From contig NZ_BBNN01000015.1 in the NCBI RefSeq assembly GCF_000829695.1, positions 372,001 to 436,000 of the forward strand: a stretch of 64,000 bases of DNA, in the 5' to 3' direction. Below are positions 31,431 through 51,944 of this stretch, in pieces. This DNA is from Streptomyces sp. NBRC 110035. GTDB taxonomy: Bacteria; Actinomycetota; Actinomycetes; Streptomycetales; Streptomycetaceae. Made by a program: the position numbers and the translations under genes. The notes under the pieces were generated by a model. It saw only the letters and a program-made list of their open reading frames with translations. It searched no databases and had not been told where the DNA came from. Numbering within the stretch: position 1 is the first letter of the stretch; every line of letters begins with the position of its first letter.

Positions 31431-31458
31431 CAACGGTCGCCGGATGAAAAAGGTTCAA
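31431..31458 (-). promoter_or_regulatory. Locus promoter motif, site A
   Basis: On the minus strand: TTGAACC (31458-31452), 15-bp spacer, CCGTTG (31436-31431), about 70 bp upstream of the ChW-protein start at 31361. It fits the motif shared by the T4SS-like locus (ECF-type -35 with AAC core and -10 with CGTT). Confidence 0.65.
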
Positions 31459-31566
31459 CTCCAGGGCGACAACCGGGATAACAGCGAAATCAGCGATGAC
31501 ACGGGACGGAATGGCACGTTCCGTCCAGGTGACGGTGGCGACTTCCCGTCCTACTAGAGTCCGAGG

Positions 31567-34500
31567 GTGGACCACTACGTGAATTCCGTTCGCTTCGCCG
31601 TGCTGGGCCCGGTCCGGGCATGGCGCGGGAAACGGGAACTGGACCTCGGCTCGCCCCAGCAGAGAGTTGTGCTGGCGCTGCTGCTGTTACGGCGTGGACG
31701 CCCCGTACCGCTCGGTGAACTCCTCGGCGCCGTCTGGGGGGAGGAGCCGCCCGCGGCTGCCGTGTCCGTCCTGCGGACCTACGTGTCGCGCCTGCGCAAG
31801 GTGCTGGAGCCCGGCCGTGACCGGGCCGCCGGGCAGCCCCGGGTGGTCGTCTCCGTCGGGGACGGATACGTGCTGCGGATCCCGGACGACGCCCTGGACC
31901 TCGCCGTGTTCCAGCGCCGGGTCGCCCGGGCGAAGAGGGCACGCGCCGCGGGCGACGTGTCCGGCGCCGCGGAACTGCTGCACGCCGCGCTCGGCGAGTG
32001 GCAGGGAGCCGCGCTGGCCGGACTCCCCGGCCCGCTGGCCGAGACGGTGCGCTCCTGGCTGGACGAGGAGTGGCTGACCGCGCTGGAGGCGCGGCTGGAC
32101 GTCGACGTCCAGCTCGGACGCCATCACGAGGTGATCGCCGAGCTGATCCCGCTCACCGGCAGGCACCCCCTGCGGGAGCAACTGTGCCGGCTGCTCATGC
32201 TGGCGCTGTACCGGTCCGGGCGGCAGGCCGAGGCACTGGCGGCGTACCGCGGGACACGGAGTGCCCTGGTCAGGGAGCTGGGTGTCGAGCCCGGTGCCTC
32301 GCTCCAGAACCTGCATGACCGCATCCTGGCGGCCGACCCGGCCCTGATGCCCGACCCGGCACCCGCTCCGCTCCGGCCCGCGTACCCGCTCAGGCAGCTC
32401 CGCCCGTCCGTGACGCCTGTGGCGTCCGAGCCGTCCGTCGTCGCATCGGCGGACGGGAGAGCGGGCGATGACACGGCAACCGGCGGCAGGACGGCGGACG
32501 AGCCGGCGTCGGACGACGGTCCGGCCGACCGGCCGACGGACGGGGCCGACCGTTGTGACCCGCACGGCACCCCGGAGGGGACCGCCCGCCCGGCGCAACT
32601 GCCCGCCGATCTGCCGACCTTCGCCGGACGGCACGCCGAACTCGAGCGGACCGAAGCCCTGTTGCCCGAGGACGGCAGCCCTCCGTCGACCGTCGTGATC
32701 AGCGCGATCGGCGGCATGGGCGGGATCGGCAAGTCCACTCTGGCCGTGCACTGGGCCCACCGGGTCGCCGACCGCTTCCCCGGCGGCCAGCTCTACATCA
32801 ACCTGCGCGGCTTCGACCCGACCGGCTCGGCGGTGACGCCGGACGACGCCGTGCGGATCTTCCTCGACGCGCTCGGCGTCCCCCCGATGCGCATACCCTC
32901 CGGTCTCGACGCGCAGGTGGCGCTGTACCGCAGCCTGCTCGCGCGGAGCAGGCTGCTGATCCTCCTCGACAACGCCCGCGACACCGAGCAGGTCCGCCCG
33001 CTGCTGCCCGGATCCCCGGGCTGCCTGGTCATCGTCACCAGTCGCAATCGGCTCACCGGCCTGGTCGCCGGCGAAGGGGCGCAGCCCCTGACGCTGGATC
33101 AGATGACCTCCGCCGAGGCACACGACCTGCTGGCCCGGCGCCTCGGCACCGACCGGCTGGCCGCGGAACCCGAGGCGGCGGACGAGATCATCGCGCGGTG
33201 CGGCCGGCTGCCGCTGGCGCTCGCCATCGTCGCCGCCCACGCCTGCGCCCACCCGGCCTTCCCGCTCAGCGCCATCGCCGACGAGGTGAGCGACAGCCAC
33301 GGCAGCCTGGACGCCTTCGCCGGCGGTGACGACATCACCACCGACGTGCGGGCCGTCTTCTCCTGGTCCTACAAGGCGCTGTCCGTCCCGGCGGCACGCC
33401 TGTTCCGGCTGCTGGGCCTGCACACCGGGCCGGACATCTCCGCGCCCGCGGCGGCCGCCCTCGCCGGGCTCCCCCCGCGTGAGGCCCGCGGCATCCTCGC
33501 CGAGCTGACCCGCGCCCACCTGCTCACCGAGCACTTCCCGGGCCGCTACACCCTGCACGACCTGCTGCGCGTGTACGCCGCCGAACGGGTGCGTGCCGAG
33601 GAGACACGGGAGGAGCGGGACCTCGCCGTCGAGCGACTGCTCTCCTGGTACCTGCACACCGCCGACGCGGCCTACCCGCACATCACCCCGAACCGCCGCC
33701 GTATTCCCCTGGAACCGCTGCCCGAGGGGTGCCGGCCGCTGGAGTTCACGACGCACGAGCAGGCGCTCGACTGGTGCGAGACCGAACGGCCCAACCTGGT
33801 CGTCGCGGTGCACCAGGCCGACCAGGCCGGGAAACCTGGCATCGCGTGGCGGCTGCCCGCCGTCCTGTGGGGGTTCTTCTACCTGCGCAGCCACACGCAC
33901 GACTGGCTCGACACCTCCCGTACGGGTCTCATCGCCGCCCGCACCGCCGGCGACCGGCAGGGCGAGGCCCAGGGGCTGTCCGACACGGCCGCCGCGCTGC
34001 GCAACGCCGGCAGGCTCGAGGAGGCCATCGTGCACCTGCACCGGGCGCTGGAACTGTGCCAGGAACTCGGGGACAGGAAGGCAAGGTCGACGGTGGTCGC
34101 CAACCTGGGCGACGTCTACCTGCACGTCGGCCGGCTCGGCAAGGCCGTCGAGTACATCCGAAGGGGGCTGGCCCTCGACCGCATCGAGGGCAGCGCCTGG
34201 GGAGAGGGCGTCGCCCTGTGCAACCTGGGCGACGCCTACCAGCGGCTCGGCCGGTACGACGACGCCCTCGGCTGCCTGGAGCGGGCACTGGTGGTGCTGC
34301 GCGCCGGCGACAACCGCTGGGTCGAGGGCGTCGCCCTCGACATCCTCGGCACGGTCCACCACCGGCTCGGCCGCTACGACGAGTCCGTCGAGTACTACCG
34401 TCAGGCACTCGCGACGCACCGGGACATCGGCAACCGGTGGGGCGAGGGCCACACGCTGGGCAATCTCGGGGACGTCCATCTCGACGCCGAGGAGCCGGAG

Positions 34501-34650
34501 GCCGCCCGGGCGAGCTGGCACCAAGCCCTCGCGATCTTCGCGGAGTTCGGTCATCCGGACGCCGAGAAGGTCCGCGCGCGGCTCGCCCGCCTGCAGGACG
34601 GCCCGGCCGACGCGCGTGCCCGAGGGGCTGCGCCGAAACGGACCGCCTGA
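31567..34650 (+). CDS. AfsR/SARP family regulator with NB-ARC and TPR domains
   Basis: A 1027-residue regulator. It has an OmpR-type DNA-binding domain (about 5-95, VRFAVLGPVRAWRG start) and a bacterial transcriptional activation domain (BTAD, about 100-250). A disordered linker is followed by an NB-ARC/STAND ATPase with P-loop GGMGGIGKST (K about 389) and LLILLDNA as Walker B. TPR repeats fill about 750-1010 (NLGDVYLHVGRLGKAVEYI, NLGDAYQRLGRYDDALGCL). AfsR-type proteins activate secondary metabolism and development. It has no copy of the locus motif upstream but sits inside the locus. A candidate leaderless -10 TACTAG lies just before the GTG start. Confidence 0.9.
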   Translation: MDHYVNSVRFAVLGPVRAWRGKRELDLGSPQQRVVLALLLLRRGRPVPLGELLGAVWGEEPPAAAVSVLRTYVSRLRKVLEPGRDRAAGQPRVVVSVGDGYVLRIPDDALDLAVFQRRVARAKRARAAGDVSGAAELLHAALGEWQGAALAGLPGPLAETVRSWLDEEWLTALEARLDVDVQLGRHHEVIAELIPLTGRHPLREQLCRLLMLALYRSGRQAEALAAYRGTRSALVRELGVEPGASLQNLHDRILAADPALMPDPAPAPLRPAYPLRQLRPSVTPVASEPSVVASADGRAGDDTATGGRTADEPASDDGPADRPTDGADRCDPHGTPEGTARPAQLPADLPTFAGRHAELERTEALLPEDGSPPSTVVISAIGGMGGIGKSTLAVHWAHRVADRFPGGQLYINLRGFDPTGSAVTPDDAVRIFLDALGVPPMRIPSGLDAQVALYRSLLARSRLLILLDNARDTEQVRPLLPGSPGCLVIVTSRNRLTGLVAGEGAQPLTLDQMTSAEAHDLLARRLGTDRLAAEPEAADEIIARCGRLPLALAIVAAHACAHPAFPLSAIADEVSDSHGSLDAFAGGDDITTDVRAVFSWSYKALSVPAARLFRLLGLHTGPDISAPAAAALAGLPPREARGILAELTRAHLLTEHFPGRYTLHDLLRVYAAERVRAEETREERDLAVERLLSWYLHTADAAYPHITPNRRRIPLEPLPEGCRPLEFTTHEQALDWCETERPNLVVAVHQADQAGKPGIAWRLPAVLWGFFYLRSHTHDWLDTSRTGLIAARTAGDRQGEAQGLSDTAAALRNAGRLEEAIVHLHRALELCQELGDRKARSTVVANLGDVYLHVGRLGKAVEYIRRGLALDRIEGSAWGEGVALCNLGDAYQRLGRYDDALGCLERALVVLRAGDNRWVEGVALDILGTVHHRLGRYDESVEYYRQALATHRDIGNRWGEGHTLGNLGDVHLDAEEPEAARASWHQALAIFAEFGHPDAEKVRARLARLQDGPADARARGAAPKRTA

Positions 34651-34705
34651 CATGGATCTCCTCCGATCGTGAGCCCCGTCGAGGAGTCGCCGGGGCACAC
34701 CCGAA

Positions 34706-34733
34706 CAACGGCCGCGGGGCGAGGACGGTTCAA
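34706..34733 (-). promoter_or_regulatory. Locus promoter motif, site H (orphan, antisense to AfsR)
   Basis: Minus strand: TTGAACC (34733-34727), 15-bp spacer, CCGTTG (34711-34706). It points toward the 3' end of the AfsR-like gene on the opposite strand. A GGAGGAG ribosome-site-like sequence (34664-34658) and an ATG at 34653 follow, opening a frame antisense to AfsR. No known gene uses it. Confidence 0.5.
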
Positions 34734-34812: not shown

Positions 34813-36465
34813 TCAGCGCACCTCGCGGTAGATACGCCCGCTCGCGTTGGCGACCGCCCCGTCGTAGAGACCCGTCCGGTGGGTCTCGGTGGACAGCACG
34901 AACCACGCGTAGCGCTCCAGGAAGTCCAGGCCGTTCAGCATCTCGGTCGAGGACCGGACGAAGGCGGTCTGCTCCTGTTCGCTCGGGTAGCGCGGGGTGC
35001 CCTGGGAGAAGTCGATCAGGGCGTACTCCGTGAGCCAGACCGGCTTGTTGTAGCGGTCGTGCACGGCCTGCAGATAGCCGCGCAGCTGGTTGACGGCGTC
35101 GGGGCCGAAGTCGGCGCCGTACCAGTGCAGGGGAATGAAGTCGACGCGCAGACCGCGCTGTTCGGCCCCCTTCATGAACCGGTCCAGCCAGCCGCCCTCG
35201 AGGTCACCGCCGGAGGCGACCGCGGGTGCGCCCAGGCGCAGACCGGTGGACTCCAGCCGGGGCCACAGGTCCAGCGCCTGTTCGGGCGACATGGTGGCCT
35301 GGCCCGGATGGTCCGGCTCGTTGAAGCCGAGCAGCACCTTCCCTTCCTTGGCGGCCTGGCCCAGTTGGGCGTCGGTGACCGAGTCGGGGCCCCAGATCAT
35401 CGGGACGTACTCGACGCCCTCCGGCCTGGTGACACCGTCGCTGGAGGAGGCCCAGTTGTAGAACCAGGACGAACCGGAGTCGGCCAGGGCCTCGGAGGCA
35501 CCCGCCACGGGGTTGAGGCTGATGCCCTTGCGGGAGGCGGCCGGGGTGTTGCCGCCCTCGCGGGGCTGCTCGGTGACCACGGGGGCCGGCGGGGGCGCGG
35601 CGTTGTTGTCGGGCGGGGCGGCGGCCTCGCCGGTGCCGTGGAAGGTGACGGTCATACCGGTGCACTGCCGGCACTGGTACACGACCTGGTTGCCCTGCTC
35701 GGTGTCGTGCTTGGACCAGCTGTAAGCGGTCGGGCACTTGCCGGCCAGCGCGTCGCTGTAGGGGGTCTTCGCGTCCCGGTTCGGGTTGACGCAGACCAGC
35801 GCCCGGCCGGTGGCCTCGTCCTTGACCAGGTTGTCGGCCGGGCAGGCGGCCAGCAGGTCCTCGACGCAGCCCGCCGACGTGCACTCGCCCGACTCGGGCG
35901 GTGTCACGCCGTCCGGCGTGATGGTGATCGGCGACGCGACGGCGTTGACATAGCTGACGTTGTACCAGGGCGCCAGGCTGTCCTTCGGGTCGAAGTTGAA
36001 CTCGGCCAGTCCGGTCGGCTGTTCACCGGTCGAGCACCGGTCGGAGTACGGACCGCAGTCGCCGACGGCGCAGTGGAACGTGCTGCCCTCCTCGCCGGTG
36101 CAGCCCTCGCGGGCGAAGAACTTGCCGCGCCAGTGTCCGGCGCCGGAGTTCTCGGGGATCGTGATGGTGGCCGACTGGCCCGGGTCCAGCGTCGGAAGCC
36201 CGGTGAGTTCGGCCGACCCGTCGGCGTTGACCGTGCTGCCGATCCAGATCCGCTGGCCCGTCGTGTTCTTGAAGGTGACGGTGTGCTCGCCGGCGTTGGC
36301 GGCCGGTGTGCCCGCGATGCTCACGTCGTCCGAGCGCTGGTTCTGGATCAGCAGGGCGGTGCCGGTGACCCCGACCGCGACCAGGAGCAGTGCCAGCAGG
36401 AACGAGGTGCGTCTGCGCAGGACGGGCCTGCGCAGGACGGGCCTGTGGATGAGGGGTCTACGCAT
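34813..36465 (-). CDS. Membrane-anchored thaumatin-like/GH128-type glycoside hydrolase fusion
   Basis: A 550-residue protein. A short basic N-terminus and one TM helix (about 21-40) are followed by a thaumatin-like domain (about 58-275: TVTFKNTTGQRIWIGS, FFAREGCTG, GLAEFNFDPKDSLAPWYNVS, CTSAGCVEDLLAACP, YSDALAGKCPTAYSWSKHD), rich in cysteines as thaumatins are. A Pro/Ala linker leads to an Asl1/GH128-type TIM-barrel (about 310-545) with GFNEPDHPGQ (acid/base Glu383), DFIPLHWYG and WLTEYALIDF (nucleophile Glu480). GH128 enzymes cut beta-1,3-glucan. An AGGAGG site supports the start. It is 30 bp after the preceding gene, so it reads from site B. Confidence 0.78.
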   Translation of the reverse strand: MRRPLIHRPVLRRPVLRRRTSFLLALLLVAVGVTGTALLIQNQRSDDVSIAGTPAANAGEHTVTFKNTTGQRIWIGSTVNADGSAELTGLPTLDPGQSATITIPENSGAGHWRGKFFAREGCTGEEGSTFHCAVGDCGPYSDRCSTGEQPTGLAEFNFDPKDSLAPWYNVSYVNAVASPITITPDGVTPPESGECTSAGCVEDLLAACPADNLVKDEATGRALVCVNPNRDAKTPYSDALAGKCPTAYSWSKHDTEQGNQVVYQCRQCTGMTVTFHGTGEAAAPPDNNAAPPPAPVVTEQPREGGNTPAASRKGISLNPVAGASEALADSGSSWFYNWASSSDGVTRPEGVEYVPMIWGPDSVTDAQLGQAAKEGKVLLGFNEPDHPGQATMSPEQALDLWPRLESTGLRLGAPAVASGGDLEGGWLDRFMKGAEQRGLRVDFIPLHWYGADFGPDAVNQLRGYLQAVHDRYNKPVWLTEYALIDFSQGTPRYPSEQEQTAFVRSSTEMLNGLDFLERYAWFVLSTETHRTGLYDGAVANASGRIYREVR

Positions 36466-36495: not shown

Positions 36496-37968
36496 TCATT
36501 TCCGTCCTCTCGGCTGGGAGTTCGTGCGTGTGGTGGTGTGGGCTCTGACGGGCGCCGGGCTGGAGGACCTCGTCGGTGAGTCGCTGCTGCCCGGGGCCGT
36601 GGGGGAGCGCAGGGGAGCGAGCGACTCGAGCGAGCTGCGCAGGGCCGCGTGCCCGTCGCCGCTGAGCAGGGACGGCAGGGTTGCGGACGGCGCCAGGGGC
36701 GCTACGGGGCTCGGGGGCGCGCTCGTGGGGGCGCTGTCCACCGGGCCGCCTGCGTGGGCGGCCCGCCCGGTCTGCTGAGCAGCCCGCTCGGCCGCGAGAA
36801 AGGCCTGTCCGTCGAAGGCGTCCTGGGCACTGGGGGTGGCGGTGGGGGTGGTGCCGAGGCGTTCCCATTGCGTCTGCTGGGCTGCTTGGAAGGCCTGGCC
36901 GTCGAAGGCGTCGGTGGGGCGCGGGGTGAGGGTGGGGGTGGTGCCGAGCTGCTCCCGTTGGGCTTGCTCGGCGGCGCGGAAGGCCTGTCCGTCGAAGGCG
37001 TCCTGGGCACTGGGGGTGGCGGTGGGGGTGGTGCCGAGGCGTTCCCATTGCGTCTGCTGGGCTGCTTGGAAGGCCTGGCCGTCGGCCATCTCGTTCTGGC
37101 GGAGCCCCTCGAAGCCGCTCCGGCCCTGCTCCACGACCGGTGCCACTGCCGGTGCGGCGTCCGACCGCTCCGGCGAAGCCGGACGCTCCCAGCGCTCGCG
37201 CAGCGCCGCGAACTGCTGTGCGTCGGCGGCCATGATCCGGTCCCGGGCGGCCTCCATGGCCTCGGTGGCGGTGAGGGTGGGGGCAGCAGTGTTCGTGCTC
37301 GTGTTCGCGTCTGTCTGCGTACTGCTGTCGGTGTAGGCGTTCGTGGCCGTGACCGGCGTGGTCCGCAGTGCGGTGTCCTGCGCCGGAGTCCTTTCCCGCT
37401 GAGGCGGGTCCACACCTTGGGACGTCTCCCGCAGCGACTCCCGCATGTACGCGTTGGCGGCGTACCGGGCGACGGTCGGCATGCTCTCGGGGGACTGCTC
37501 GAACGCCTTCTTCCGGTTCGCGTCGGTCCTGACCAGGTGGAGAACCGCGTCCTCGAAGGCCTCGTGCTGGAGCGTCGACAGCCGGCCGATCCTCTCCCCG
37601 AGGCGCGCCACGTCCGGGTGCGCCGATTGCACCGAGGACATCTCGGACGATTTCTCCGCCGGCCTCTGTGCCGGGACGGGCGGCCACGGGTCGGACCGGT
37701 CGGCCTCCCGTCCGCCGACGGACGCGTAGTCCCCGCCGGCCGGGGTCGCCGCCGACTGCGACCGGCCCGTCAGACGGTCCATGAGCCGGCGCAGCTCGGC
37801 CGCCAGACGGTTCCAGAGGCCCGCCGTGTCGGTCGGATCCCGCCCGTTGTCGCGACGCTCGTCCCGCAGGCGGTACTCGGTCTTGACCAGGTCACGCGCC
37901 AGTCCGACTTCGGGGCGCTCCTTGGTCAACCGGTTCCGGCTCGGGGAGGCCGCGTTGTCGTCCGCCAC
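36496..37968 (-). CDS. Repeat-containing hypothetical protein of the secretion locus
   Basis: A 490-residue hydrophilic protein with no signal peptide or TM helix and no family I recognise. The N-terminal half (about 1-190) is charged and helical (LWNRLAAELRRLMDRLTGR; HEAFEDAVLHLVRTDANRKK). Residues about 295-395 hold three and a half 30-residue repeats (DGQAFQAAQQTQWERLGTT, then PTATPSAQDAF), two of them encoded by identical DNA. A Ser/Pro-rich tail ends in basic residues. The GTG start has GAGGGGG upstream, and promoter site B lies 40-70 bp further up. It may be a substrate or scaffold of the machine (inference). Confidence 0.65.
   Translation of the reverse strand: MADDNAASPSRNRLTKERPEVGLARDLVKTEYRLRDERRDNGRDPTDTAGLWNRLAAELRRLMDRLTGRSQSAATPAGGDYASVGGREADRSDPWPPVPAQRPAEKSSEMSSVQSAHPDVARLGERIGRLSTLQHEAFEDAVLHLVRTDANRKKAFEQSPESMPTVARYAANAYMRESLRETSQGVDPPQRERTPAQDTALRTTPVTATNAYTDSSTQTDANTSTNTAAPTLTATEAMEAARDRIMAADAQQFAALRERWERPASPERSDAAPAVAPVVEQGRSGFEGLRQNEMADGQAFQAAQQTQWERLGTTPTATPSAQDAFDGQAFRAAEQAQREQLGTTPTLTPRPTDAFDGQAFQAAQQTQWERLGTTPTATPSAQDAFDGQAFLAAERAAQQTGRAAHAGGPVDSAPTSAPPSPVAPLAPSATLPSLLSGDGHAALRSSLESLAPLRSPTAPGSSDSPTRSSSPAPVRAHTTTRTNSQPRGRK
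36800..37084. repeat. 105-bp identical direct repeat within a 90-bp repeat array
   Basis: Bases 36800-36904 and 36980-37084 are identical over all 105 positions. The unit is 90 bp (30 codons); the middle unit (about 36905-36980) has diverged (EQAQREQLGTTPTLTPRPT). Exact identity of the first and third units suggests recent duplication or gene conversion. Confidence 0.9.
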
Positions 37969-38009: not shown

Positions 38010-38038
38010 CAACGGGCGGGCCGGGGGCAACGGTTCAA
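38010..38038 (-). promoter_or_regulatory. Locus promoter motif, site B
   Basis: Minus strand: TTGAACC (38038-38032), 16-bp spacer, CCGTTG (38015-38010), 42 bp upstream of the GTG at 37968. It drives the repeat protein and probably the glycosidase fusion after it. Confidence 0.68.
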
Positions 38039-38130: not shown

Positions 38131-39018
38131 CTACTTGCGCCTCCGGCGTTCGGGCTTCTTGCCCTGAGCATTACTCGACAGCGGCTCCACCGGTGCCCTG
38201 CTGGTTCTCGTGGAGCTGCTGGGCGGGTCGAAGTTCCCGGCCGGAGCGTTGTTGGCCGGGGCCGGCAGGGACGACGTGGAGGACGGGGGCGGCGAGGCCG
38301 GGTTGTACCCGGGCGGGTACTGGCCCGGCTGGTTACCGAGAGGCGGGTTCCGGTGCATTCCGTACATCTCGTAACCGGGGTCCTGCGCCACCCGTTCGGG
38401 ACTGGTGTGGGCGTGGTGCATGATGTCGGTCATGGTCGCGCCGCCGGCCACCCAGGAGCCCGCTCCGCCGACCATCTTGGTGGTGTCGGACTCCTGGTCG
38501 CCCACAGCCGCGTACGTGTTCAGAGCCGTGGATGCCAGCCGGCCGAGGCTCGCGCCGATCTGGACCCCGTCGACGTGGCCGCCCGAGCGGTGCTGCTGGT
38601 ACTGGCCGTAGAGCTCATGGCCGGCCACCGCGCCCTGGGCGGCGATGCCGACGCCGTTGATGATCGTTCCCGCTCTGCCGGGGGCAAAGGTGGAGGCGCC
38701 CTGGATGAGGGTCGGGGAGACGTCGACCAGGGCCTTCACAATGCGGGACTTGTTCTCCGCGACCCACTTCGTCGCACTCTTGCTCCACCGCGCGACTTGG
38801 CTGCCCCGCGGGTTGTCCGGGTTGACCGCGTAGAACTGCTGGTTGGTCCGGTCGTACACGCCGGTTCCGGCCCCGGCGAACAGCGGAGGCGCGTTGTCCG
38901 GGGCAGGCTTGCTGGAGACCTCGGCCCGTGTCCCCCTTCTGTCCTCACTGATTCTGACGGACACGTAGGAACTGGCGTTGGAATTGGCGCTGTCGTCCGA
39001 GTGGGTGGATCCTGCCAT
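38131..39018 (-). CDS. Hypothetical protein of the secretion locus
   Basis: A 295-residue protein of no family I recognise. It has a Ser/Asn-rich N-terminus, then YDRTNQQFYAVNPDNPRGSQVARW and a helical, Ala/Gly-rich middle (about 85-205: KALVDVSPTLIQGASTF; GTIINGVGIAAQGAVAGHEL; VGGAGSWVAGGATM), weakly hydrophobic without a clear TM. The tail is Pro/Asn-rich and ends KKPERRRRK. The composition suggests a secreted or membrane-inserting partner. It has GGAAGGAAGG at the start and its own promoter motif (site C). Confidence 0.6.
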   Translation of the reverse strand: MAGSTHSDDSANSNASSYVSVRISEDRRGTRAEVSSKPAPDNAPPLFAGAGTGVYDRTNQQFYAVNPDNPRGSQVARWSKSATKWVAENKSRIVKALVDVSPTLIQGASTFAPGRAGTIINGVGIAAQGAVAGHELYGQYQQHRSGGHVDGVQIGASLGRLASTALNTYAAVGDQESDTTKMVGGAGSWVAGGATMTDIMHHAHTSPERVAQDPGYEMYGMHRNPPLGNQPGQYPPGYNPASPPPSSTSSLPAPANNAPAGNFDPPSSSTRTSRAPVEPLSSNAQGKKPERRRRK

Positions 39019-39115: not shown

Positions 39116-39143
39116 CAACGCGGCTGCCGAGGCAGACGGTTCA
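39116..39143 (-). promoter_or_regulatory. Locus promoter motif, site C
   Basis: Minus strand: TGAACC (39143-39138), 16-bp spacer, GCGTTG (39121-39116), about 100 bp upstream of the ATG at 39018. Confidence 0.6.
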
Positions 39144-39196
39144 TCACCTTCCGCCCGCACGTACCACCTGCCGGAGCGGTACCCCGCACGGCTCCG

Positions 39197-39718: not shown

Positions 39719-39795
39719 GGCGCCCTTCTGGTGATGCGTGGCGTGGCGGCTGGGAGATCGGTGCTCGGTGCCGGGGCGGCGGCCGGTGCGCGTTC

Positions 39796-39823
39796 CACGT
39801 GCTGTCCCCGGACGGAAGGTTCA
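39796..39823 (-). promoter_or_regulatory. Locus promoter motif, site D (weak)
   Basis: Minus strand: TGAACC (39823-39818), 16-bp spacer, then CACGTG (39801-39796), a poor match to the CCGTTG -10. It lies about 80 bp upstream of the DUF4913 gene, with the -35 overlapping the stop of the upstream NlpC/P60 gene. Confidence 0.35.
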
Positions 39824-40935: not shown

Positions 40936-40964
40936 CAACGGGGCCGGTCCGTCCGGAGGTTCAA
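40936..40964 (-). promoter_or_regulatory. Locus promoter motif, site E
   Basis: Minus strand: TTGAACC (40964-40958), 16-bp spacer, CCGTTG (40941-40936), about 80 bp upstream of the NlpC/P60 gene. It is back to back with site I. Confidence 0.68.
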
Positions 40965-40985
40965 AGCGGGCGGAACGCGACCGGA

Positions 40986-44487: not shown

Positions 44488-46319
44488 GCGGACCACCTCC
44501 CGGCGGCGGCCCCGGCCCCCGGGCCGCCGGGGAACCCCGGAACGCCCGGCTCGCCGGGTCCACCAGGCATCGCGTACGCACCCTCCTGCGCGGCCCGTGC
44601 CACCTGCGCGGCGGTGTGGGCGAGCTCCTGCTCGACCGCCTGCTCGACGGCCTCCTCGTTCGGCGTCCACCGGGTGTTGGTGTTGTGCAGCCGGCGCTCG
44701 GCGTCGGTGATGGCGACCTTGATGGGGATGCCGGGGCGTCCGCCGACCTTGATGAGGAAGCGGCCCCGGCCGGGCGGCTCCCCATGGTCGCCGGAGACAC
44801 CCCAGCCGGGCGGCGAGGACCAGGAGGAGACGAGTTCGATCTCACGCCGGGACAGGCCCACCACCTTGCCGAGGTCCTCCATCTCCGCCTTCGGCAGCCC
44901 CGCGCACACCACCATCCCGGCCCGCTCGACGAAGCCGCGCGCCTTGGCCCGGTCGGCGTCGCTGCCGAGCGCCTCGGCGTCCTTGAGCGTGTGGGTGATC
45001 TTGGCGTCGCCGAGGCCGAGGGAACGGTTGAGGCGGGTCAGGGCGTCGATGCGGTCGACGATGCCGGAGGCGGCCCGCAGCGGGCGCCACAGCTCGTCGA
45101 GCACGGTGAAGAACCAGCGCCGGGGCTCGAGCCCGGAGTCCGCGAGAGCGTGCGAGGCTGCCACCGTGCCGAGCCCGTCGGACCAGGCGGCGAGCATCGC
45201 GGCGGCGGTCAGCTGGGTGTCGGCCTCACCGATGCCGGAGATGTCGATGCACACCGCCGGAGCGTCCGGGTTGATGCGGGTGGACGTCTCGGAGGCGAAG
45301 GTGTCGCCGAGCGGGCCGTCGAGAATGCCGAGCAGGGAGCGGTGCAGCGGGTCGACGGCGTCCCGGTAGCGGGCGTCGTCCCCCCGGTCGAGGGTGACCG
45401 CGCGCACCCGGTCGGGGCCCTCGGTGAGCACCCGGAGCACGTCCGGCAGCAGCACGGTCCGGCCGGGCGGGGTGCGTTCGCGCAGGTGGTGCAGGACGGC
45501 GGAGAGCACCGACTGCTCGTGGTCGTCCATCGGCCGGCCGCGCACGATGGTGATGAGCGCGGCCACCATGTTCAGCACCCGGCCGTGCGTCTCGGCCTTC
45601 AGCACCTCGCCCGCCTCGCCGCCGATCCTGGCCGCCGCCGCGCCCATGGCGCCCGGGTCGAGGACGTTGATGCCGCCCCGGCCGCGGCCGATGGAGATCA
45701 CCTGGCCGCCGAGGGCACGGACCGTGTCGGCGTAGTCGGGCTTGAGGTCGCCGAGGACCAGCGGGACGACACCGGTGGCGGAGAGCCCGATCAGCATGCG
45801 GTTGACGAGCGTGGACTTGCCCAGACCCGGCATGCCGAGCATGAACAGCGACGGGTTGGAGATGTACCGGGCCCGGGTGAACCAGTTCAGCGGGTCGCCG
45901 CAGACCGTGGCCCCGGTGAACAGGTGCTGCCCCAGCGGTACGCCCGTCATGGGTGAGCCGGAACCGGCCGCGAACGGCCACATGCCGCACGCCTGCACGG
46001 TGGTGGCCCGCCACATGGTCGGCGGATCCAGGTAGCCGACCCGCCCGCCCCCGGCCCCGTACCAGCCGCGTGGCGGCACGTACGGCTCGCGGGGGCGGGA
46101 AGCGGCCGTCTTCCCGCCCCCGCCCTGCCTGCCGCCGCCCTCGCCGAGCCCGGCCTTCTCCCGTTCCTTGCGCTCCGTACGGCTCACGCGGCCCTTGCGC
46201 CCGGCCTTCTCCGGCCGCGGGGACCCCGCCCCGGGACGCCTCGCCTCCAGCTCCGCGCGTGCCCGCTGCTCCGCCAGCCGGTCGGCCAGCTCGGCCTTCT
46301 TCTCGTCGCGGCGGCTCAC
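44484..46319 (-). CDS. VirB4-like secretion ATPase (C-terminal motor part)
   Basis: The 611-residue protein has a basic helical N-terminus (about 1-70) and an AAA-type ATPase domain with Walker A MPGLGKSTLVNRM (about 162), LVLGDLKPDYAD, AVCIDISGIGEADT and FTVLDELWRPLR as Walker B. It ends in a Gly/Pro-rich tail. With the SCO6880-family protein it looks like a VirB4 split over two genes: N-terminal half in the upstream gene, motor here. GTG start with AGGAGG; it overlaps both neighbours. Confidence 0.82.
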   Translation of the reverse strand: MSRRDEKKAELADRLAEQRARAELEARRPGAGSPRPEKAGRKGRVSRTERKEREKAGLGEGGGRQGGGGKTAASRPREPYVPPRGWYGAGGGRVGYLDPPTMWRATTVQACGMWPFAAGSGSPMTGVPLGQHLFTGATVCGDPLNWFTRARYISNPSLFMLGMPGLGKSTLVNRMLIGLSATGVVPLVLGDLKPDYADTVRALGGQVISIGRGRGGINVLDPGAMGAAAARIGGEAGEVLKAETHGRVLNMVAALITIVRGRPMDDHEQSVLSAVLHHLRERTPPGRTVLLPDVLRVLTEGPDRVRAVTLDRGDDARYRDAVDPLHRSLLGILDGPLGDTFASETSTRINPDAPAVCIDISGIGEADTQLTAAAMLAAWSDGLGTVAASHALADSGLEPRRWFFTVLDELWRPLRAASGIVDRIDALTRLNRSLGLGDAKITHTLKDAEALGSDADRAKARGFVERAGMVVCAGLPKAEMEDLGKVVGLSRREIELVSSWSSPPGWGVSGDHGEPPGRGRFLIKVGGRPGIPIKVAITDAERRLHNTNTRWTPNEEAVEQAVEQELAHTAAQVARAAQEGAYAMPGGPGEPGVPGFPGGPGAGAAAGRWSA

Positions 46320-47809
46320 AGCGCCTCCTGCAGTTCGTGCGGGATCAGGGTCTGCTCCCACGGGAGGATCCCGGCGGGCAGCGTGCAGCTGAACGCGGCC
46401 GCCTGCATCCGGTCCGCGGGCCGCATCAGCACCCGGGAGGCCGCGGTCAGGTTGCGCACCGTGACGCTCGCGTCGGCCAGTTGGTCCATGGTGTCGACGG
46501 TGACGGTCAGCATCAGCGAGAACTCCACGAGCCCCGCGCCCGACGCCTCCTCGGTAGCGGTCTGCTCCGCCGCCCGTATCTCGGAGGCCGCGCGGGCCTG
46601 CACCATGCCCCGGCCGGACGTCGCCATGAACTGGGCGCTGCGCCGGTCCGCCTCGACGATCCGGGCCGAGGTGGCCGGGTCGATCGGCCGGTACACCAGC
46701 GCGACCCGCTTGCGCCGCGTGCCGGGCGCCGCCTCCAGCATGCCCCGGAGCACCGAGGACCGTACGGTGCCGCGCGGTGCCAGCGTCATCAGCCAGGTCC
46801 GGGACACCCCCGAGTCGTGCTGGTAGCTGCCCACGGTCTCGACGGCGGCGGCCGGCCCGGCGTCGTCCCACTCCAGGCCCGTACCGCCCTGCTGGGCGCG
46901 GGCGTTGAGGACGTCGGCGGAGACGGCAGGGTCGTAGGCGACCCGCACGACCTCCGCGATCCGCTCCGCCGACAGCGGGTACGCGGCCCCGCCGCCGGCC
47001 GCGACCAGACCGCTGAGCAGGCCCGGGATGCGGATGGCGAGGTCGGTGATCACGTCCTCCTTCTTCCGCTTCTGGCCCGCGGGGACGCCGTAGGTGAGGC
47101 TGACGTACGTGTGCATCTCGGAGGACGCGGTGGGGTAGCGCTCGACGACCTCCTCCATCACGGCACGGGCGGCGGCCGGCGCGTCCGGCCGGATGCGGGG
47201 CAGCACCTCGTGGGCGAGCCGGGTGCCCGGGTCGGGGGCGGTCTCCACGATCACGGACGCGCCGCGCAGCCCGGGTTCGTGGGACAGGCGGGCCAGCCAC
47301 TCGCCCCACAGGGCGACCCACACGTCGACCTGGTCCGGGTCGACGAGCGAACCGCCGTCCGGGTCGCAGCCCAGGACGATCGTGTACAGGTTGCGGTTCG
47401 GATGGTGCAGCACGCCGAAGGGACGGTCGTAGGCGTCCCGGCCCTCGGTCGCGGAGACCTTGTTGAGCAGCCCCGGCGGACGGAACCGGCCGCCCGGCCG
47501 GGCGGACAGCGGCCCGGAGACGTACAGGTGCGCGCCCCTGGCCTTGCGCCGCCGCCAGCCGATGCGCAGGGCGATCAGCTGGTAGACGTTGCGGCCGTCC
47601 TGGGTGCGGATGGCGAGCGGGACCAGGAACACCGCGATGGGGACGAACACGACCATCGCCGCGTACAGCGAGATCAGGGACGCGAGCAGGGTGAGGACGA
47701 GCCCGCCGAAGACACCGAAGGTGCCGACGAGCCCGAGCGGACCGAGCCCCGGACGCCTTGGGCGGCGCCAGTTCCCGTAGGTCGGATGGGTGACGGCTTC
47801 CGTGGACAT
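46316..47809 (-). CDS. SCO6880 family T4SS-like membrane protein
   Basis: The 497-residue protein has two TM helices close to the N-terminus (about 22-70, PrgI/VirB3-like) and a large cytoplasmic part (about 100-490) with LHHPNRNLYTIVLGCDPDG, EMHTYVSLTYGVPAGQKRKKE split over a Ser-rich turn, and AALVYRPIDPATSARIVEADRR-like sequence. It is the standing partner of VirB4-like ATPases in actinomycete T4SS-like loci (SCO6880 family). It probably combines VirB3 and the VirB4 N-terminal domain. Confidence 0.82.
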   Translation of the reverse strand: MSTEAVTHPTYGNWRRPRRPGLGPLGLVGTFGVFGGLVLTLLASLISLYAAMVVFVPIAVFLVPLAIRTQDGRNVYQLIALRIGWRRRKARGAHLYVSGPLSARPGGRFRPPGLLNKVSATEGRDAYDRPFGVLHHPNRNLYTIVLGCDPDGGSLVDPDQVDVWVALWGEWLARLSHEPGLRGASVIVETAPDPGTRLAHEVLPRIRPDAPAAARAVMEEVVERYPTASSEMHTYVSLTYGVPAGQKRKKEDVITDLAIRIPGLLSGLVAAGGGAAYPLSAERIAEVVRVAYDPAVSADVLNARAQQGGTGLEWDDAGPAAAVETVGSYQHDSGVSRTWLMTLAPRGTVRSSVLRGMLEAAPGTRRKRVALVYRPIDPATSARIVEADRRSAQFMATSGRGMVQARAASEIRAAEQTATEEASGAGLVEFSLMLTVTVDTMDQLADASVTVRNLTAASRVLMRPADRMQAAAFSCTLPAGILPWEQTLIPHELQEAL

Positions 47810-47890
47810 GAGGGTCCGTTTTCCCTTCGTTCGGTGATCGGGTGACGGGGGCGGGGGTGGGCGGGGCGCGAGGGGGCGGGGGAGGAAAGC

Positions 47891-47931
47891 GGCCGCCGAA
47901 CTCCATCGGGGGGACGTGGAGTTCGGCGGCC
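47891..47931. terminator. 15-bp perfect hairpin inside the T4SS-like operon
   Basis: GGCCGCCGAACTCCA (47891-47905) and TGGAGTTCGGCGGCC (47917-47931) pair fully around an 11-nt G-rich loop. It sits in the only sizeable gap (47810-47974) of the operon, between the TrbL-like gene and the SCO6880 gene. It is likely a partial terminator or mRNA stabiliser that lowers expression of the ATPase genes relative to the pore genes. Confidence 0.65.
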
Positions 47932-47974
47932 GTTCAGGAGGCGGTGCGCCGGGTGCCCGTCCGGGCCGCCGGGG

Positions 47975-49246
47975 TCAGCGGTTGTGCCCCTGGTCGCCGT
48001 CGGCGCCCTCGAGGGAGCCGGAGGCGGTACGGCCGGCGACCTGCGCCGCCGTCACCGCCGCCCCGACAGCGACACCGACCGGGCCTCCCGCCGCCGCGGC
48101 GGCCCGGCCCGCACCGGCGGCCGCTCCGCCGCCGGCTCCTCCGCCGCCGGCGCCGGCTCCCGCCCCGGCACCCGGGGCTCCCGGCCGGCCCGCGCCGCCG
48201 TCGGTGCCGCCGAAACCGGAGGAGCCGGACATGCCGCCGGAACCGGAGGAGCCCTGCGAACCGCCCGAGCCGCCCGAACCGGACGCCCCCGACGCGCCGC
48301 GCGGACCGCTCTGCCCGCCGGCGCCACCGCTGCCGCTGCCGCCCCCGCTGCTGCCGCCGAGCGAACGGGCGCCGGACGCCAGGGAGCCGCCCACCGACGA
48401 CATCGCCCCGGACATCGCGGACGCCCCGCCGAGCGCGGCGGTGGCGGGGACGACGAGTTTCAGCAGGGCGGGCAGGGCGACGGCGGACAGCAGCATCACG
48501 CCGATACCGGCGATGCGTTCGTTGATGTCGCTGCCGCCGTCCTGACCCGAGCTGATCATGGCCGAGCCCGCGTACAGCACCAGGCCGGCCGCCGGTTTGT
48601 ACAACAGCCAGGCGATCATCCAGCCGAGGTGCTTGCGCCACCAGCCGCCGCCCCAGTTCGTCATGGAGGCGGCGGCGGCCAGCGGAAGGGTGCCCAGCAG
48701 CAGGATCATCACGCCGAGGCGGATGTAGAGCAGGATCGTGTGGATGATCCCGGCGATCAGCAGCAGGAAGGCGAGGATCAGCAGCAGGAAGGCCTCGATG
48801 CCGTTGCCGTCGGAGCAGGCGCCCACGGCGCTCAGCTGCTTCTCCGCGCCCGCGTTGAAGAGGTACGTGGAGTAGTCGTCGGAGAGGGTGGCGGCGGCCG
48901 TGACGACGGTGGTGGCGGCGCCCGAGACGAGGATGACCCGCATGATGCCCTTGAGCGCGGTCGTGCCGGCCTCCCCGCGCCGCTCGATGGCCATCCGGGC
49001 GGACGCGAACAGCAGCGAGCCGACCGCCAGATAGACCACGATCCACTGTGTCTGGCTGTTGATGTCCTGGGCCGTCGTGGTTCCCGAGAGGGTCGGGATG
49101 CTGGTGGTCAGCGCCCCGAACACCGCGATGGCGCCCGCGAGGACGGCGTTGGCGATGCCCTCGACGATGGTCCCGATGGGATCCCCGAGGAAGCTGAAGA
49201 ACCCCACCGCGATGTCGACGATGGGATTACCGGTCGGGCACGCCAT
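47975..49246 (-). CDS. VirB6/TrbL-like multi-pass membrane protein
   Basis: The 423-residue protein has about seven TM helices in residues 10-290 (TQWIVVYLAVGSLLFA; AFLLLILAFLLLIAGIIHTI; LGVMILLLGTLPLAAAASM; IGVMLLSAVALPALLKLV) and a 130-residue Gly/Ser/Ala-rich C-terminal tail. Size, topology and place in the operon fit the VirB6/TrbL inner-membrane channel component. It starts one base after the upstream gene's stop. Assigned by topology and context, not by strong motif. Confidence 0.72.
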   Translation of the reverse strand: MACPTGNPIVDIAVGFFSFLGDPIGTIVEGIANAVLAGAIAVFGALTTSIPTLSGTTTAQDINSQTQWIVVYLAVGSLLFASARMAIERRGEAGTTALKGIMRVILVSGAATTVVTAAATLSDDYSTYLFNAGAEKQLSAVGACSDGNGIEAFLLLILAFLLLIAGIIHTILLYIRLGVMILLLGTLPLAAAASMTNWGGGWWRKHLGWMIAWLLYKPAAGLVLYAGSAMISSGQDGGSDINERIAGIGVMLLSAVALPALLKLVVPATAALGGASAMSGAMSSVGGSLASGARSLGGSSGGGSGSGGAGGQSGPRGASGASGSGGSGGSQGSSGSGGMSGSSGFGGTDGGAGRPGAPGAGAGAGAGGGGAGGGAAAGAGRAAAAAGGPVGVAVGAAVTAAQVAGRTASGSLEGADGDQGHNR

Positions 49247-49247
49247 G

Positions 49248-50078
49248 TCAAACCCCCCAAAGGAGATGGCCGTTGGTTCCCTGGACCGCCTTCACCGGCG
49301 TGTGCAGGGCACCGTTGTCGGAGGGCTGGACCTTCCAGTCGCCGCCGCTCCAGCGCAGGGCGATGGAGGTCGTGGCGTAGCCCTGACTGGTCTTGAGCAG
49401 CAGTTCGACGGTCGCCGCCTCGCCGGAGTACGCGGGCACCGAGTATCCGGCGTAGGAGGCGACGGACGAACTGCCGGTCCCGGCACTCGCGCCGGAGCCG
49501 CCGGAGTCCGACCCGTCACCCGCCTCGGCACCGGAGCCGGATTCGGCGTCGTCCTGGACCGTGGAACGTTTGAAGACGAACAGGTCCCGGCCCCGGCCGG
49601 ACACGACCTGCTCCCGCGCGACGGTCCGCCAGTCGGGACCGCTCATCTGCGAGGGAATGATATGGGCGGCCAGCACGGCTCCGGTCGGCGTGTGCGCGAA
49701 GCACCACCACAGGGGCCCCTGGGTCAGGGCCGGCCCGGCGGAGGCCGAGACGGGCACACGTGTGACGTCGAGGGTGTGCCAGTCGACGTCGTCGGGCGGA
49801 GCCGTGGGCAGGGCGTCGCCGTCGCCGTCGTCCGTACGGCACCCTTCGGGCCGGCCGTCCTTCATGGCCGGGGTGCCGGACAGCGGCCCCTCGGCCGCCG
49901 GCGCGTTCCCGTTGTTCCCGTCGGTGTCCTGGTCGGCCGTCAGCGCGACGATCCCGCTCAGTACGACGACGACGGCGAGGAACCCCGCCGACACCTGCCA
50001 GCCGCGCTGCTTCCAGTACGGCCCCGACGGGTCCGACCGGTACCGGCGTGGCTCCCGGTACTCCCTACGTGTGAACAT
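49248..50078 (-). CDS. Single-pass membrane protein in VirB8 position
   Basis: The 276-residue protein has a basic cytoplasmic N-terminus, one TM helix (about 29-48, VSAGFLAVVVVLSGIVALTA) and an exported domain. The domain starts WHTLDVTRVPVSAS and ends with VELLLKTSQGYATTSIALRW and SGGDWKV, strand patterns like the NTF2-like fold of VirB8/TcpC/conjugal scaffold proteins. A Ser/Gly/Asp-rich insert (about 185-205) splits it. Assignment as a VirB8-like scaffold is inference from topology and gene order. Confidence 0.6.
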   Translation of the reverse strand: MFTRREYREPRRYRSDPSGPYWKQRGWQVSAGFLAVVVVLSGIVALTADQDTDGNNGNAPAAEGPLSGTPAMKDGRPEGCRTDDGDGDALPTAPPDDVDWHTLDVTRVPVSASAGPALTQGPLWWCFAHTPTGAVLAAHIIPSQMSGPDWRTVAREQVVSGRGRDLFVFKRSTVQDDAESGSGAEAGDGSDSGGSGASAGTGSSSVASYAGYSVPAYSGEAATVELLLKTSQGYATTSIALRWSGGDWKVQPSDNGALHTPVKAVQGTNGHLLWGV

Positions 50079-50101
50079 CCCGACCGTTCCCGTCCGCGGA
50101 C

Positions 50102-50386
50102 TCAGTTGAAGACGAACTGGACCAGCGGACCCGCGGTGGCGACCAGGACACAGCCGCCGATCACCATGCCGAGGCGGCTCATGTGCTCCGAACCCTCACC
50201 GCGCTTGAGGGAGACGGCCATCATCGTGCCGGTGATCAGCACTCCGGCGACGCCGGCGGCGGTCCCGGCCCAGGCCGCTATACCGAGCACGGTGGTGACC
50301 TTGGTGGTCAACTCGCCGGGCGCGTTGCTCACCGGCTGGGGCACGCCGGCGGCGAGTACGGCGGTGGCTTCGAGGAACAGGGACAT
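50102..50386 (-). CDS. Small two-TM protein, VirB2-like paralogue 2
   Basis: The 94-residue protein has two TM helices (about 31-55, LGIAAWAGTAAGVAGVLITG; about 70-90, MVIGGCVLVATAGPLVQFVF) separated by the basic loop SLKRGEG. It is a clear paralogue of the next upstream gene (common RGE loop and GC.LA.TAGPLV ending). Size and topology fit VirB2/TrbC-type pilin subunits. The ATG at 50386 has a GGAGA site. Confidence 0.68.
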   Translation of the reverse strand: MSLFLEATAVLAAGVPQPVSNAPGELTTKVTTVLGIAAWAGTAAGVAGVLITGTMMAVSLKRGEGSEHMSRLGMVIGGCVLVATAGPLVQFVFN

Positions 50387-50498
50387 GGAGAGTCTCCGAG
50401 AGGTCGGTCGGCGCCACGGGACGAGCGGTGGACGCGAGATGTGAACGGGATGCTGCCCAGAGGACTGGGACAAGGGGTACCGAAGAGGTGCGCGATCC

Positions 50499-50789
50499 TC
50501 AGAAGAGGGACAGGTCCCCCAGGAACGAGACGAGCGGTCCGGCCGTGGTGGCGAGCAGGCAGCCGAGGACGACGTAGAAGCCCCCGCGGAAGTACGTGGC
50601 GCCCTCTCCCATTTCGCCGCGGCGCAACTGCAATGCCATCTGCAGGCCGATGGCGATCATCCCGAAGACCCCCGCGGCCGAGACGCACCAGGAGAGGATG
50701 CCGAGAATGGTGTCCGCGTCGGAGGTCGGGGTGTAGCCGGCCAGCCGCTCCCCGAGAGGGAGGGCGGGGTGGCTGATGGAGGAGGTCAT
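50499..50789 (-). CDS. Small two-TM protein, VirB2-like paralogue 1
   Basis: The 96-residue protein has two TM helices (about 29-53, ILGILSWCVSAAGVFGMIAI; about 68-92, FYVVLGCLLATTAGPLVSFL) with the loop QLRRGEMGEG. It is paralogous to the gene at 50102-50386. The start overlaps the DUF6668 stop by 4 bp. It is likely a pilin-like or channel subunit; a hetero-oligomer of the two paralogues is possible. Confidence 0.68.
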   Translation of the reverse strand: MTSSISHPALPLGERLAGYTPTSDADTILGILSWCVSAAGVFGMIAIGLQMALQLRRGEMGEGATYFRGGFYVVLGCLLATTAGPLVSFLGDLSLF

Positions 50790-51847
50790 GAAACGGTTCT
50801 CTCGCCGTCGGTTCCGGGGCCCACCAGGTCGGCGAGCGCGCTGAGTTGTCGGGGCAGGTACGTGGGCTGACCGCCCACGCGCCAGGCCGGGATCCACGGC
50901 ACCCGGTGCACGTGGGTGACCGAGCGGACGACCCGGATGCGGCGCAGCAGGCTGAGCGGGAGCCGTCCGGGGGCGTCGGCGACGAGGACGACACCCAGCA
51001 GGTCGATCCCCTGCGGGGCCTTTCCGTCCTTCAGCGCACCCAACGCCCGTGACACGGAACGCAGTCCGCGCGCGCTGGTCCGGCCGACCAGCATGACCCG
51101 GCGCGGCTCGCCCCGCGCGGGCTCCGGCCAGCGGGCCCCCACGTCGACCCCGCCGAGAGCGTCGGCGAGCGAGGAGGCACCGGCTCCGCCGTGCGCCTTG
51201 ACCCACCCGATCTCGTCCCGCGACTTCCCGCGCAGGGGCACCCGCCGTCTGGGCTCACCCCAGGAGGGCTCGCCGTCGGGGGCGGGGGCCCTCTTGCGGG
51301 GGGCGGGGGAGGAGGGGCGGGATGTCCGGGCCGGGGCGGCGGCGGGCGCGGGGGCCGCCGCCTGCGTGGGCGGGGCGGATGCCGTCGGGTGCGCGGGCGG
51401 GGCGGGCGCGGCCGCGGGGGCCGCCGACGCGGACGGCGCGGGGAACACCGGAGCGGGTGCCGGGTGCACGGCTGTTCCGGCCTGGGTGTGCTGCCCCGGC
51501 GGGATGTGCTGTCCCGGCTGAGGGTGTTGCACCTGCTGAAGGTGCTGTTCCGGTTGGGGGTGCTGTCCCGATGCCCTGGGCTGGACCGGCGTCCCCGGCC
51601 GGACTGCCGTACCCGCGCCGTACCCCGTCGCCGGCCCGGTCCCCGGACCCGCAGCCGCCCCGGTTGCCGGAGCCCGGCCCGCACCGGAGGCCCCGCCGTC
51701 CGTGGCGGGCGGCGCGGCGGCCGGGGCCGTCGGCCGCGCGGGTTTCGGCCCTCGTACCCACGACTGCGGGCCCGACGGCGTTGCCGGAGGAGTGCCCATG
51801 TGCGCCCCGCCCCCTTCTCCGCTCGTGCTTCGGCTGCTCTGGCTCAT
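50786..51847 (-). CDS. DUF6668-like, degenerate ParA/MinD-like protein; first gene of T4SS-like operon
   Basis: The 353-residue protein has an Ala/Pro/Gln-rich disordered N-terminal half (about 1-205) and a compact C-terminal domain (about 215-350). That domain begins WVKAHGGAGASSLADALGG, a P-loop-like turn lacking the usual GK(S/T), then RRVMLVGRTSARGLRSVSRA and LLGVVLVADAPGRLP. It fits the DUF6668 family seen at the head of such loci. The function is probably regulatory or assembly-related. Promoter site G lies 70-97 bp upstream. Confidence 0.7.
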   Translation of the reverse strand: MSQSSRSTSGEGGGAHMGTPPATPSGPQSWVRGPKPARPTAPAAAPPATDGGASGAGRAPATGAAAGPGTGPATGYGAGTAVRPGTPVQPRASGQHPQPEQHLQQVQHPQPGQHIPPGQHTQAGTAVHPAPAPVFPAPSASAAPAAAPAPPAHPTASAPPTQAAAPAPAAAPARTSRPSSPAPRKRAPAPDGEPSWGEPRRRVPLRGKSRDEIGWVKAHGGAGASSLADALGGVDVGARWPEPARGEPRRVMLVGRTSARGLRSVSRALGALKDGKAPQGIDLLGVVLVADAPGRLPLSLLRRIRVVRSVTHVHRVPWIPAWRVGGQPTYLPRQLSALADLVGPGTDGERTVS

Positions 51848-51862
51848 CTGATTTCCACGGGT

Positions 51863-51890
51863 TTGAACTTATTCGCGCCGGGGCCCGTTT
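51863..51890 (+). promoter_or_regulatory. Locus promoter motif, site F
   Basis: Plus strand: TTGAACT (51863-51869), 15-bp spacer, CCGTTT (51885-51890), upstream of the SLT gene at 51970. One mismatch in each hexamer. It faces site G, so the divergent leaders overlap by about 10 bases. Confidence 0.5.
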
Positions 51891-51915
51891 GGATCTTTCG
51901 AGCCCGTCGACAGCA

Positions 51916-51944
51916 CAACGGGCCGTTCGGCCGTCGCGGTTCAA
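51916..51944 (-). promoter_or_regulatory. Locus promoter motif, site G
   Basis: Minus strand: TTGAACC (51944-51938), 16-bp spacer, CCGTTG (51921-51916), 69 bp upstream of the DUF6668-like gene. It would drive the main eight-gene operon down to 42643. Confidence 0.7.

Follow-up and report, generated by a model that had tools for sequence, protein, structure and literature searches.

A recurrent ECF-type promoter box probably joins a type IV secretion-like machine, wall hydrolases and predicted substrates of a Streptomyces locus in one regulon

Introduction

HrpL, a sigma factor of the extracytoplasmic function (ECF) class, drives a type III machine together with its effectors through a short promoter box, and because one sigma drives both, this hrp box can be used to find the genes of the regulon (PMC2957411). 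Here, we describe a box of similar use in Streptomyces sp. NBRC 110035, in a stretch of 64,000 nucleotides (contig NZ_BBNN01000015.1, positions 372,001 to 436,000 of the forward strand; hereafter the window, with positions counted from its first letter). The box, TTGAACC-N15/16-CCGTTG, recurs over a 20.5-kb locus that encodes a machine resembling a type IV secretion system (T4SS). Based on sequence comparisons, we consider it probable that the boxes are promoters of a dedicated SigL-like ECF sigma and that they bring the machine, hydrolases, the sigma operon and predicted substrates into one regulon.

As with HrpL and the hrp box of Pseudomonas and Dickeya, one box stands on the machine and on scattered candidate substrate genes, some of them outside the locus in relatives. 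The systems differ in that the machine here is T4SS-like, the bacteria are Gram-positive actinomycetes, the sigma is SigL-like and the box has another sequence (the hrp box is GGAACC/CCAC). By analogy, we read the box as a code that marks T4SS substrates much as the hrp box marks effectors. With regard to the sigma factor, the closest solved relative by far is SigL of Mycobacterium tuberculosis, whose -35 element is TGAACC and whose -10 element shares CG-T with the box. Differences from SigL include T rather than G at -11, an -10 element extended by TG, and a regulon that covers a secretion locus, in which a search for an anti-sigma of the RslA type found none.

The machine shares the SCO6880 protein family with two Streptomyces coelicolor clusters, SCO6871-6884 and cmdA-F (SCO4126-4131). 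The genes of these two clusters are alike, and null mutants of SCO6878 or SCO6881 are described as free of the cmd sporulation and pigment defects (PMC2782261). An ECF sigma also influences T4SS expression in the BcrS/AbcS system of Brucella, where an adjacent redox operon is given as the direct target and the T4SS effect as one of several (PMC8315932); in our locus, in contrast, the sigma gene lies within the T4SS locus itself. No description of the box or of the regulon was found by title and abstract in the matching literature, which was covered in part and with few subscription journals.

The box in the window and in the genome

A sequence-only reading of the window had listed nine such sites and taken them to mark the whole T4SS-like locus as one regulon. 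Eight of the nine are present, namely five exact sites (at 31458, 34733, 38038, 40964 and 51944, all on the minus strand) and three near-consensus sites. The ninth, a weak site at 39823-39796 (-), is spurious: it has mismatches at 3 of the 13 consensus positions and a 17-nt spacer, lies on the stop codon of the NlpC/P60 gene and is not conserved in aligned relatives. The predicted promoters are:

51916-51944, minus strand: TTGAACC-16-CCGTTG, at the head of the T4SS operon, whose first start codon is at 51847; exact match, head box in 31 related loci
51863-51890, plus strand: TTGAACT-15-CCGTTT, ahead of the genes for the SLT protein, the 52845 product and the sigma; near-consensus, faces the T4SS-head promoter
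40936-40964, minus strand: TTGAACC-16-CCGTTG, before the NlpC/P60 gene (start 40855); exact match, found in 29 loci
40985-41013, plus strand: ATGAACC-16-CCGTTG, before the gene of a 130-aa membrane protein (start 41059); near-consensus, found in 28 loci
39116-39144, minus strand: ATGAACC-16-GCGTTG, before the predicted substrate gene 38131-39018; near-consensus motif match
38010-38038, minus strand: TTGAACC-16-CCGTTG, before the predicted substrate gene 36496-37968; exact match
34706-34733, minus strand: TTGAACC-15-CCGTTG, antisense at the 3' end of the AfsR-like gene; exact match
31431-31458, minus strand: TTGAACC-15-CCGTTG, before the gene of a ChW-domain membrane protein (start 31361); exact match

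All but one of the sites had been placed 35-110 bp upstream of a gene. At the seven sites where a gene is supported, the -10 element ends 41-97 nt before the start codon. The exact site at 34706 has no supported coding gene, which counts against the proposed regulon.

Shuffling the window 100 times produced no strict match, and the loose matches in the window numbered 8 (0.65 expected). A genome-wide count, of the kind proposed in the earlier reading, finds the strict form five times in 7.5 Mb, with all five copies inside the 20.5-kb locus and none for the reversed-pattern control; equal abundance elsewhere in the genome, which the same reading had named as fatal to it, is not seen. When the pattern was adjusted to the sites of relatives, as TGAACC-N16/17-CGTTG, it matched nine times genome-wide (reversed control, 0); seven of these matches are at the locus, where an even spread would put ~0.025 in 20.5 kb; the two matches outside the locus have only weak candidate starts downstream. 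The loose core TGAAC-N15-18-CGTT occurs 130 times in the genome versus 20 times for its reversed control. Being this common, the core alone is not diagnostic, and TGAAC-N-CGTT was rejected as a genome-wide marker.

The abundance of the loose core could suggest that GC-rich Streptomyces DNA yields such matches anywhere by chance or composition, and at least one strict match (spacers 14-17) does occur in 54 of 121 Streptomyces genomes, mostly scattered. This explanation is nevertheless almost certainly wrong, as it is contradicted by the zero controls in this genome, the restriction to the locus, the specificity of the spacing and the conservation described below.

Conservation and form of the box in related loci

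The comparison with orthologous loci, likewise proposed in that reading, showed that the box is conserved in dozens of relatives. It was made on 63 related loci, the set obtained from our scan with an SCO6880-family protein. Exact sites in these loci numbered 67 at spacers 15/16 versus 1 at the fifteen other spacers within 8-24, and sites with one mismatch numbered 101 versus 21; at two mismatches the contrast between spacers was weak. In a profile of 214 sites, each with no more than a single mismatch and pooled from loci with and without the sigma, TGAAC and CGT had a frequency of 1.00, the first T differed in 37%, G followed the -35 element in 67% and TG followed the -10 element in ~80% of the sites. 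The -10 element in relatives extends to CCGTTGTG, and the -35 element is mostly followed by G. Because a mismatch was permitted at any position, the uneven mismatch pattern is a sign of selection. A coding open reading frame (ORF) with a Shine-Dalgarno sequence lay 8-160 nt downstream of 131/199 sites, as compared with 347/1990 random positions.

The box was also searched genome-wide in relatives (48 loci in 47 genomes, with close-clade loci on short contigs left out). The strict form was present in 22/22 close-clade genomes and in 1/25 others, where it occurs as two tandem copies. Within the 22 close-clade genomes, 79 of 90 sites were located at most 20 kb from the SCO6880 gene and 11 were elsewhere (3 on short contigs, one broken assembly).

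An AAC-type -35 and a CGT-type -10 element, both conserved, at fixed spacing and oriented to a gene, give the box the general ECF-promoter form that the sequence-only reading had assigned to it. A different reading would be that a classical activator or repressor, such as the AfsR-like SARP of the locus, binds the boxes and that they are not promoters; many relatives, like the locus itself, encode an AfsR-like regulator. We regard this as very improbable, since two unlike half-sites with a fixed 15/16-nt spacing, oriented to genes and with no repeat symmetry, are the form of an ECF promoter, and most box positions fit promoter placement.

The in-locus sigma factor as candidate reader

The locus carries its own sigma gene, which had already been singled out from the sequence:

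54061-54606, plus strand: ECF sigma factor, SigL-like, predicted reader of all sites (homology, co-occurrence)

M. tuberculosis SigL is its best solved relative (113 bits over nearly the full length; next relative, 60 bits), and the family NCBIfam NF007227 matches it at 196.1 bits, just under the cut-off of 202. Co-occurrence of an in-locus sigma (at least 50% identity) with the head box (TGAAC-N17/18-CGTT) was tabulated for 47 loci, 16 of the 63 being left out as their DNA ends too near. Both were present in 28 loci, the sigma only in 1, the box only in 1 and neither in 17 (p ~1e-10, with no correction for relatedness). The locus with a box and no in-locus sigma, L070, has a sigma of 57% identity elsewhere in its genome, and 3 of the 17 loci scored with neither have an in-locus ECF gene of 36-42% identity. 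Beyond the close clade, 8 of 25 genomes have a sigma of 52-58% identity, and in most of them the head box is not of the strict form. Among loci below 80% SCO6880 identity, the smaller part has a sigma and a box that are both diverged, and most have neither.

The -10 preference reported for SigL is CG, T and G at -14 to -11 (PMC6372665). The box agrees in CG and in T(-12), has T instead of G at -11, and does not show the SigL -10 form T(-12) G(-11) N C/A A G. Because of the T at -11, we call the sigma SigL-like rather than SigL. An explanation of this T through Asp60 of SigL was dropped, as orthologues with a conserved box differ in the residue aligned to it, and we draw no conclusion from it; nearly all close-clade members have Asp one position earlier.

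The boxes could instead be read by another sigma, with the in-locus sigma having some other role. The most likely such reader is the paralog C56, a SigL-like protein encoded elsewhere in this genome that is 52% identical to the window sigma and whose presumed promoter shares TGAAC and CGT with the boxes. When the sigma protein was searched in 23 of the 47 genomes, a SigL-like paralog of 49-53% identity was found in 19, and a paralog (49-52%) was present in 14 of the 15 searched genomes that have neither the strict box nor the in-locus type of sigma. The sequence upstream of the paralog is TGAACA-N-CGTACCCG in the four genomes read, i.e., this one and three motif-less ones, and the next ORF in this genome encodes an H-x3-C-x2-C protein, a candidate anti-sigma. 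The in-locus sigma is the better candidate because the paralog is also present where the motif is absent, is preceded by a different box and has a likely anti-sigma partner; reading by C56 or a further sigma is improbable in our view. The gene at 54061, which the sequence-only reading proposed for expression tests, is therefore the best candidate by co-occurrence and paralog comparison, and the in-locus sigma likely reads the boxes.

Several observations weigh against this assignment. The p-value overstates the association because the loci share ancestry, and the 50% sigma cut was chosen after the table had been seen. Locus L076 has a sigma of 57% identity and no head box. Homology alone is no proof of recognition, given the T at -11 and the diverged specificity loop of the sigma. 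In addition, a single-motif search for a zinc anti-sigma of the RslA type (an H-x3-C-x2-C ORF of 60-350 aa) found none in window positions 44001-64000 or in 21 kb of seven relatives.

The machine and the membership of the regulon

The operon behind the head box contains the following genes:

50786-51847, minus strand: first gene of the T4SS operon, with a proline-rich N-terminus
50102-50473, minus strand: small protein resembling VirB2/TrbC, by a weak match that stays under the Pfam cut-off
47975-49246, minus strand: conserved T4SS-operon gene with no Pfam family
46316-47809, minus strand: SCO6880-family protein
44484-46319, minus strand: VirB4-like ATPase (weak NCBIfam matches, below cut-off)
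42643-44670, minus strand: VirD4/TraG-type coupling protein

An SCO6880-family protein thus stands in one operon with VirB4-like and VirD4-like ATPases, as in a T4SS of the SCO6880 kind, the VirB4 match being weak and below the cut-off. The other genes of the locus, apart from the predicted substrates, are:

51970-52818, plus strand: lytic transglycosylase-like protein with an SLT domain, whose gene presumably opens the sigma operon (domain match)
52845-53855, plus strand: 336-aa protein encoded between the SLT and sigma genes, with partial similarity to the ChW protein (no Pfam match)
39821-40855, minus strand: NlpC/P60 peptidoglycan hydrolase
39197-39718, minus strand: small DUF4913 protein, its gene following NlpC and probably sharing its transcript
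34813-36465, minus strand: Thaumatin + Glyco_hydro_cc protein after 36496-37968, presumably on the same transcript
31567-34650, plus strand: AfsR-like SARP regulator (BTAD, NB-ARC, TPR)
29763-31361, minus strand: ChW-domain membrane protein, a recurrent member of the regulon

The gene after NlpC was at one point taken as ORF 39144-39824, which is in the wrong frame; the DUF4913 gene is the correct one.

To describe the membership across relatives, the genes behind 211 of 212 boxes (hereafter tagged genes) were clustered by single-linkage BLASTP, by which the ChW and a few other families were split. The recurrent tagged genes were the T4SS head (33 loci), NlpC/P60 (29), the 130-aa membrane protein (28), the ChW protein (20 over the split clusters), DUF4913 proteins (8) and SLT (4 with a strict box), and many tagged families occurred in one or a few genomes. 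Spacing, orientation, conservation and the co-occurrence of the sigma support the claim, made from the window alone, that the boxes form one ECF regulon over the T4SS-like locus; that claim has to be trimmed by the sites at 39823 and 34706, and by boxes that also lie off-locus in some relatives.

In the mechanism that we propose, the SigL-like ECF sigma (54061-54606) would read the TGAACC-N16/17-CGTTG boxes and switch on the chromosomal T4SS-like machine together with variable predicted substrates. The wall hydrolases of the same regulon, NlpC/P60 and SLT, would open the wall for the machine, and the sigma would raise its own operon via the promoter at 51863. It can be guessed that the thaumatin + glycosidase protein and the ChW proteins point to surface or glucan targets.

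The ChW protein (29763-31361) and the product of 52845-53855 have an apparent N-terminal stretch in common, and both queries match the same places in relatives.

Tagged cargo and basic tails

Two tagged genes of the window are predicted to encode substrates:

38131-39018, minus strand: predicted T4SS substrate with a basic C-terminal tail
36496-37968, minus strand: predicted T4SS substrate; basic tail in 34/37 family members

Cargo families were defined in the sigma-bearing clade, where 13 of 44 clusters (machinery and small conserved proteins) were removed by eye and 31 remained. A net charge of at least +3 in the last 15 residues was found in 21/31 of these families versus 62/651 other genes (p 9e-14), and 21/31 end in Lys or Arg versus 88/651. 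With all 44 clusters kept, 21/44 have a tail of at least +3 (p 8e-10) and 22/44 end in Lys or Arg (p 4e-8). The tail is kept while the body diverges, not only in the 36496-37968 family but also in 20 of 24 members of another (both counts with queries included). Among the 11 exact off-locus sites in relatives, 4 lead to clearly basic-tailed proteins (L130, L131, L134, L137); the protein at L136 ends in Arg with a tail of +2, the site at L135 has a basic-tailed ORF 244 nt away with no Shine-Dalgarno sequence, and two sites at L132 lead to a ChW protein and to a gene cut by the contig end.

With regard to the nature of the cargo, 3 of 20 proteins scanned (one in the wrong frame) exceeded the Pfam cut-off, as an aldo/keto reductase, an inositol polyphosphate kinase and DUF4913. 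The kinase match belongs to the off-locus tagged protein L136:2380-3498, which, like a tagged family of 479 aa, comes from relatives and lies outside this window. The 479-aa family has a confident predicted fold over residues 1-357, which matches effector/toxin glycosyltransferases first and also ordinary glycosyltransferases such as Och1 (best E 3e-7, template modelling (TM) scores <0.5). The predicted structure of the 38131-39018 family had a mean predicted local distance difference test (pLDDT) score of 43 and was not used.

Substrates of the VirB/D4 system of Agrobacterium carry a basic C-terminal signal. By analogy, the basic tails may be export signals that would be read by the VirD4-like coupling protein, and this is the weakest step of our argument. 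Several points stand against it: the split between machinery and cargo was made by eye; basic tails in the cargo zone occur in 27/63 tagged genes but also in 12/72 untagged ones, several of which look like orthologues of tagged genes; 3 of the 11 exact off-locus sites lead to proteins with no basic tail (L128, L129, L133); and some tagged genes, on and off the locus, have no such tail.

It is possible, though unlikely, that the regulon is real and the basic-tailed proteins bind DNA or wall, or that the machine moves DNA, in which case they would not be T4SS substrates. Basic disordered tails are able to bind DNA or polyanions. Moreover, genes that plasmid SLP2 needs for conjugation are similar to the related cmd genes (PMC2782261). 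This would fit poorly with the tagged cargo families, which are numerous, mostly unrelated and variable between close relatives, and with a cargo fold that resembles effector glycosyltransferases (ordinary GT-A enzymes match too) and another cargo protein with an inositol polyphosphate kinase domain. In addition, no relaxase Pfam match was found among the ORFs of the window that were scanned, which were part of the total. A more far-reaching reading, to which we give somewhat less than even chances, is a protein-injecting chromosomal T4SS in Streptomyces, whose hypervariable effectors (glycosyltransferase-fold, inositol-polyphosphate-kinase-like) would carry a basic C-terminal address and one ECF box and be aimed at neighbouring, possibly eukaryotic, cells.

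Facing promoters and an antisense box

In 31 loci, a second, looser box (mostly TGAACT) lies near the head box and reads into the genes for SLT, the 336-aa protein and the sigma, so that the sigma would be autoregulated. The two boxes are face to face in 30 of the 31 loci, with ~80-90 bp from -35 to -35, and back to back in L070. In the window, the ends of their -10 elements are 25 bp apart, so that simultaneous occupancy of the head promoter and the promoter of the sigma operon is improbable.

The box at 34706-34733 (-) reads antisense into the AfsR-like gene 31567-34650 from its 3' end. The same arrangement occurs in 14 loci, the window included, and was not found by the same pattern in other loci with an AfsR-like gene (e.g., L038, L046, L047, L053). 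A Shine-Dalgarno sequence and ATGTCA follow the box in 10 of the 14 loci, in the window directly beside the AfsR stop (34648-34733), where a GC-rich stretch before them looks like a hairpin. A 988-aa ORF on the minus strand behind 34706 was rejected as a gene, being antisense to the AfsR-like gene and low in coding score. Transcription from the box may give rise to a short RNA or an antisense RNA that acts on the AfsR-like regulator.

On the sigma side of some loci there is a second AfsR-like gene, 46-48% identical to that of the window, with an internal antisense box (L042:2001, L046:2515, L051:2494, L054:2626 (-)).

Neighbouring genes

Further along the window, 58234-61147 holds a gene pair with a HerA/DUF87-type ATPase, possibly a defence system, and 61418-62440 an APH-family kinase-like gene.

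Significance

A promoter code that marks the machine together with candidate substrates would point directly to proteins that merit testing, and the single sigma gene would offer a handle for switching the system on in the laboratory.

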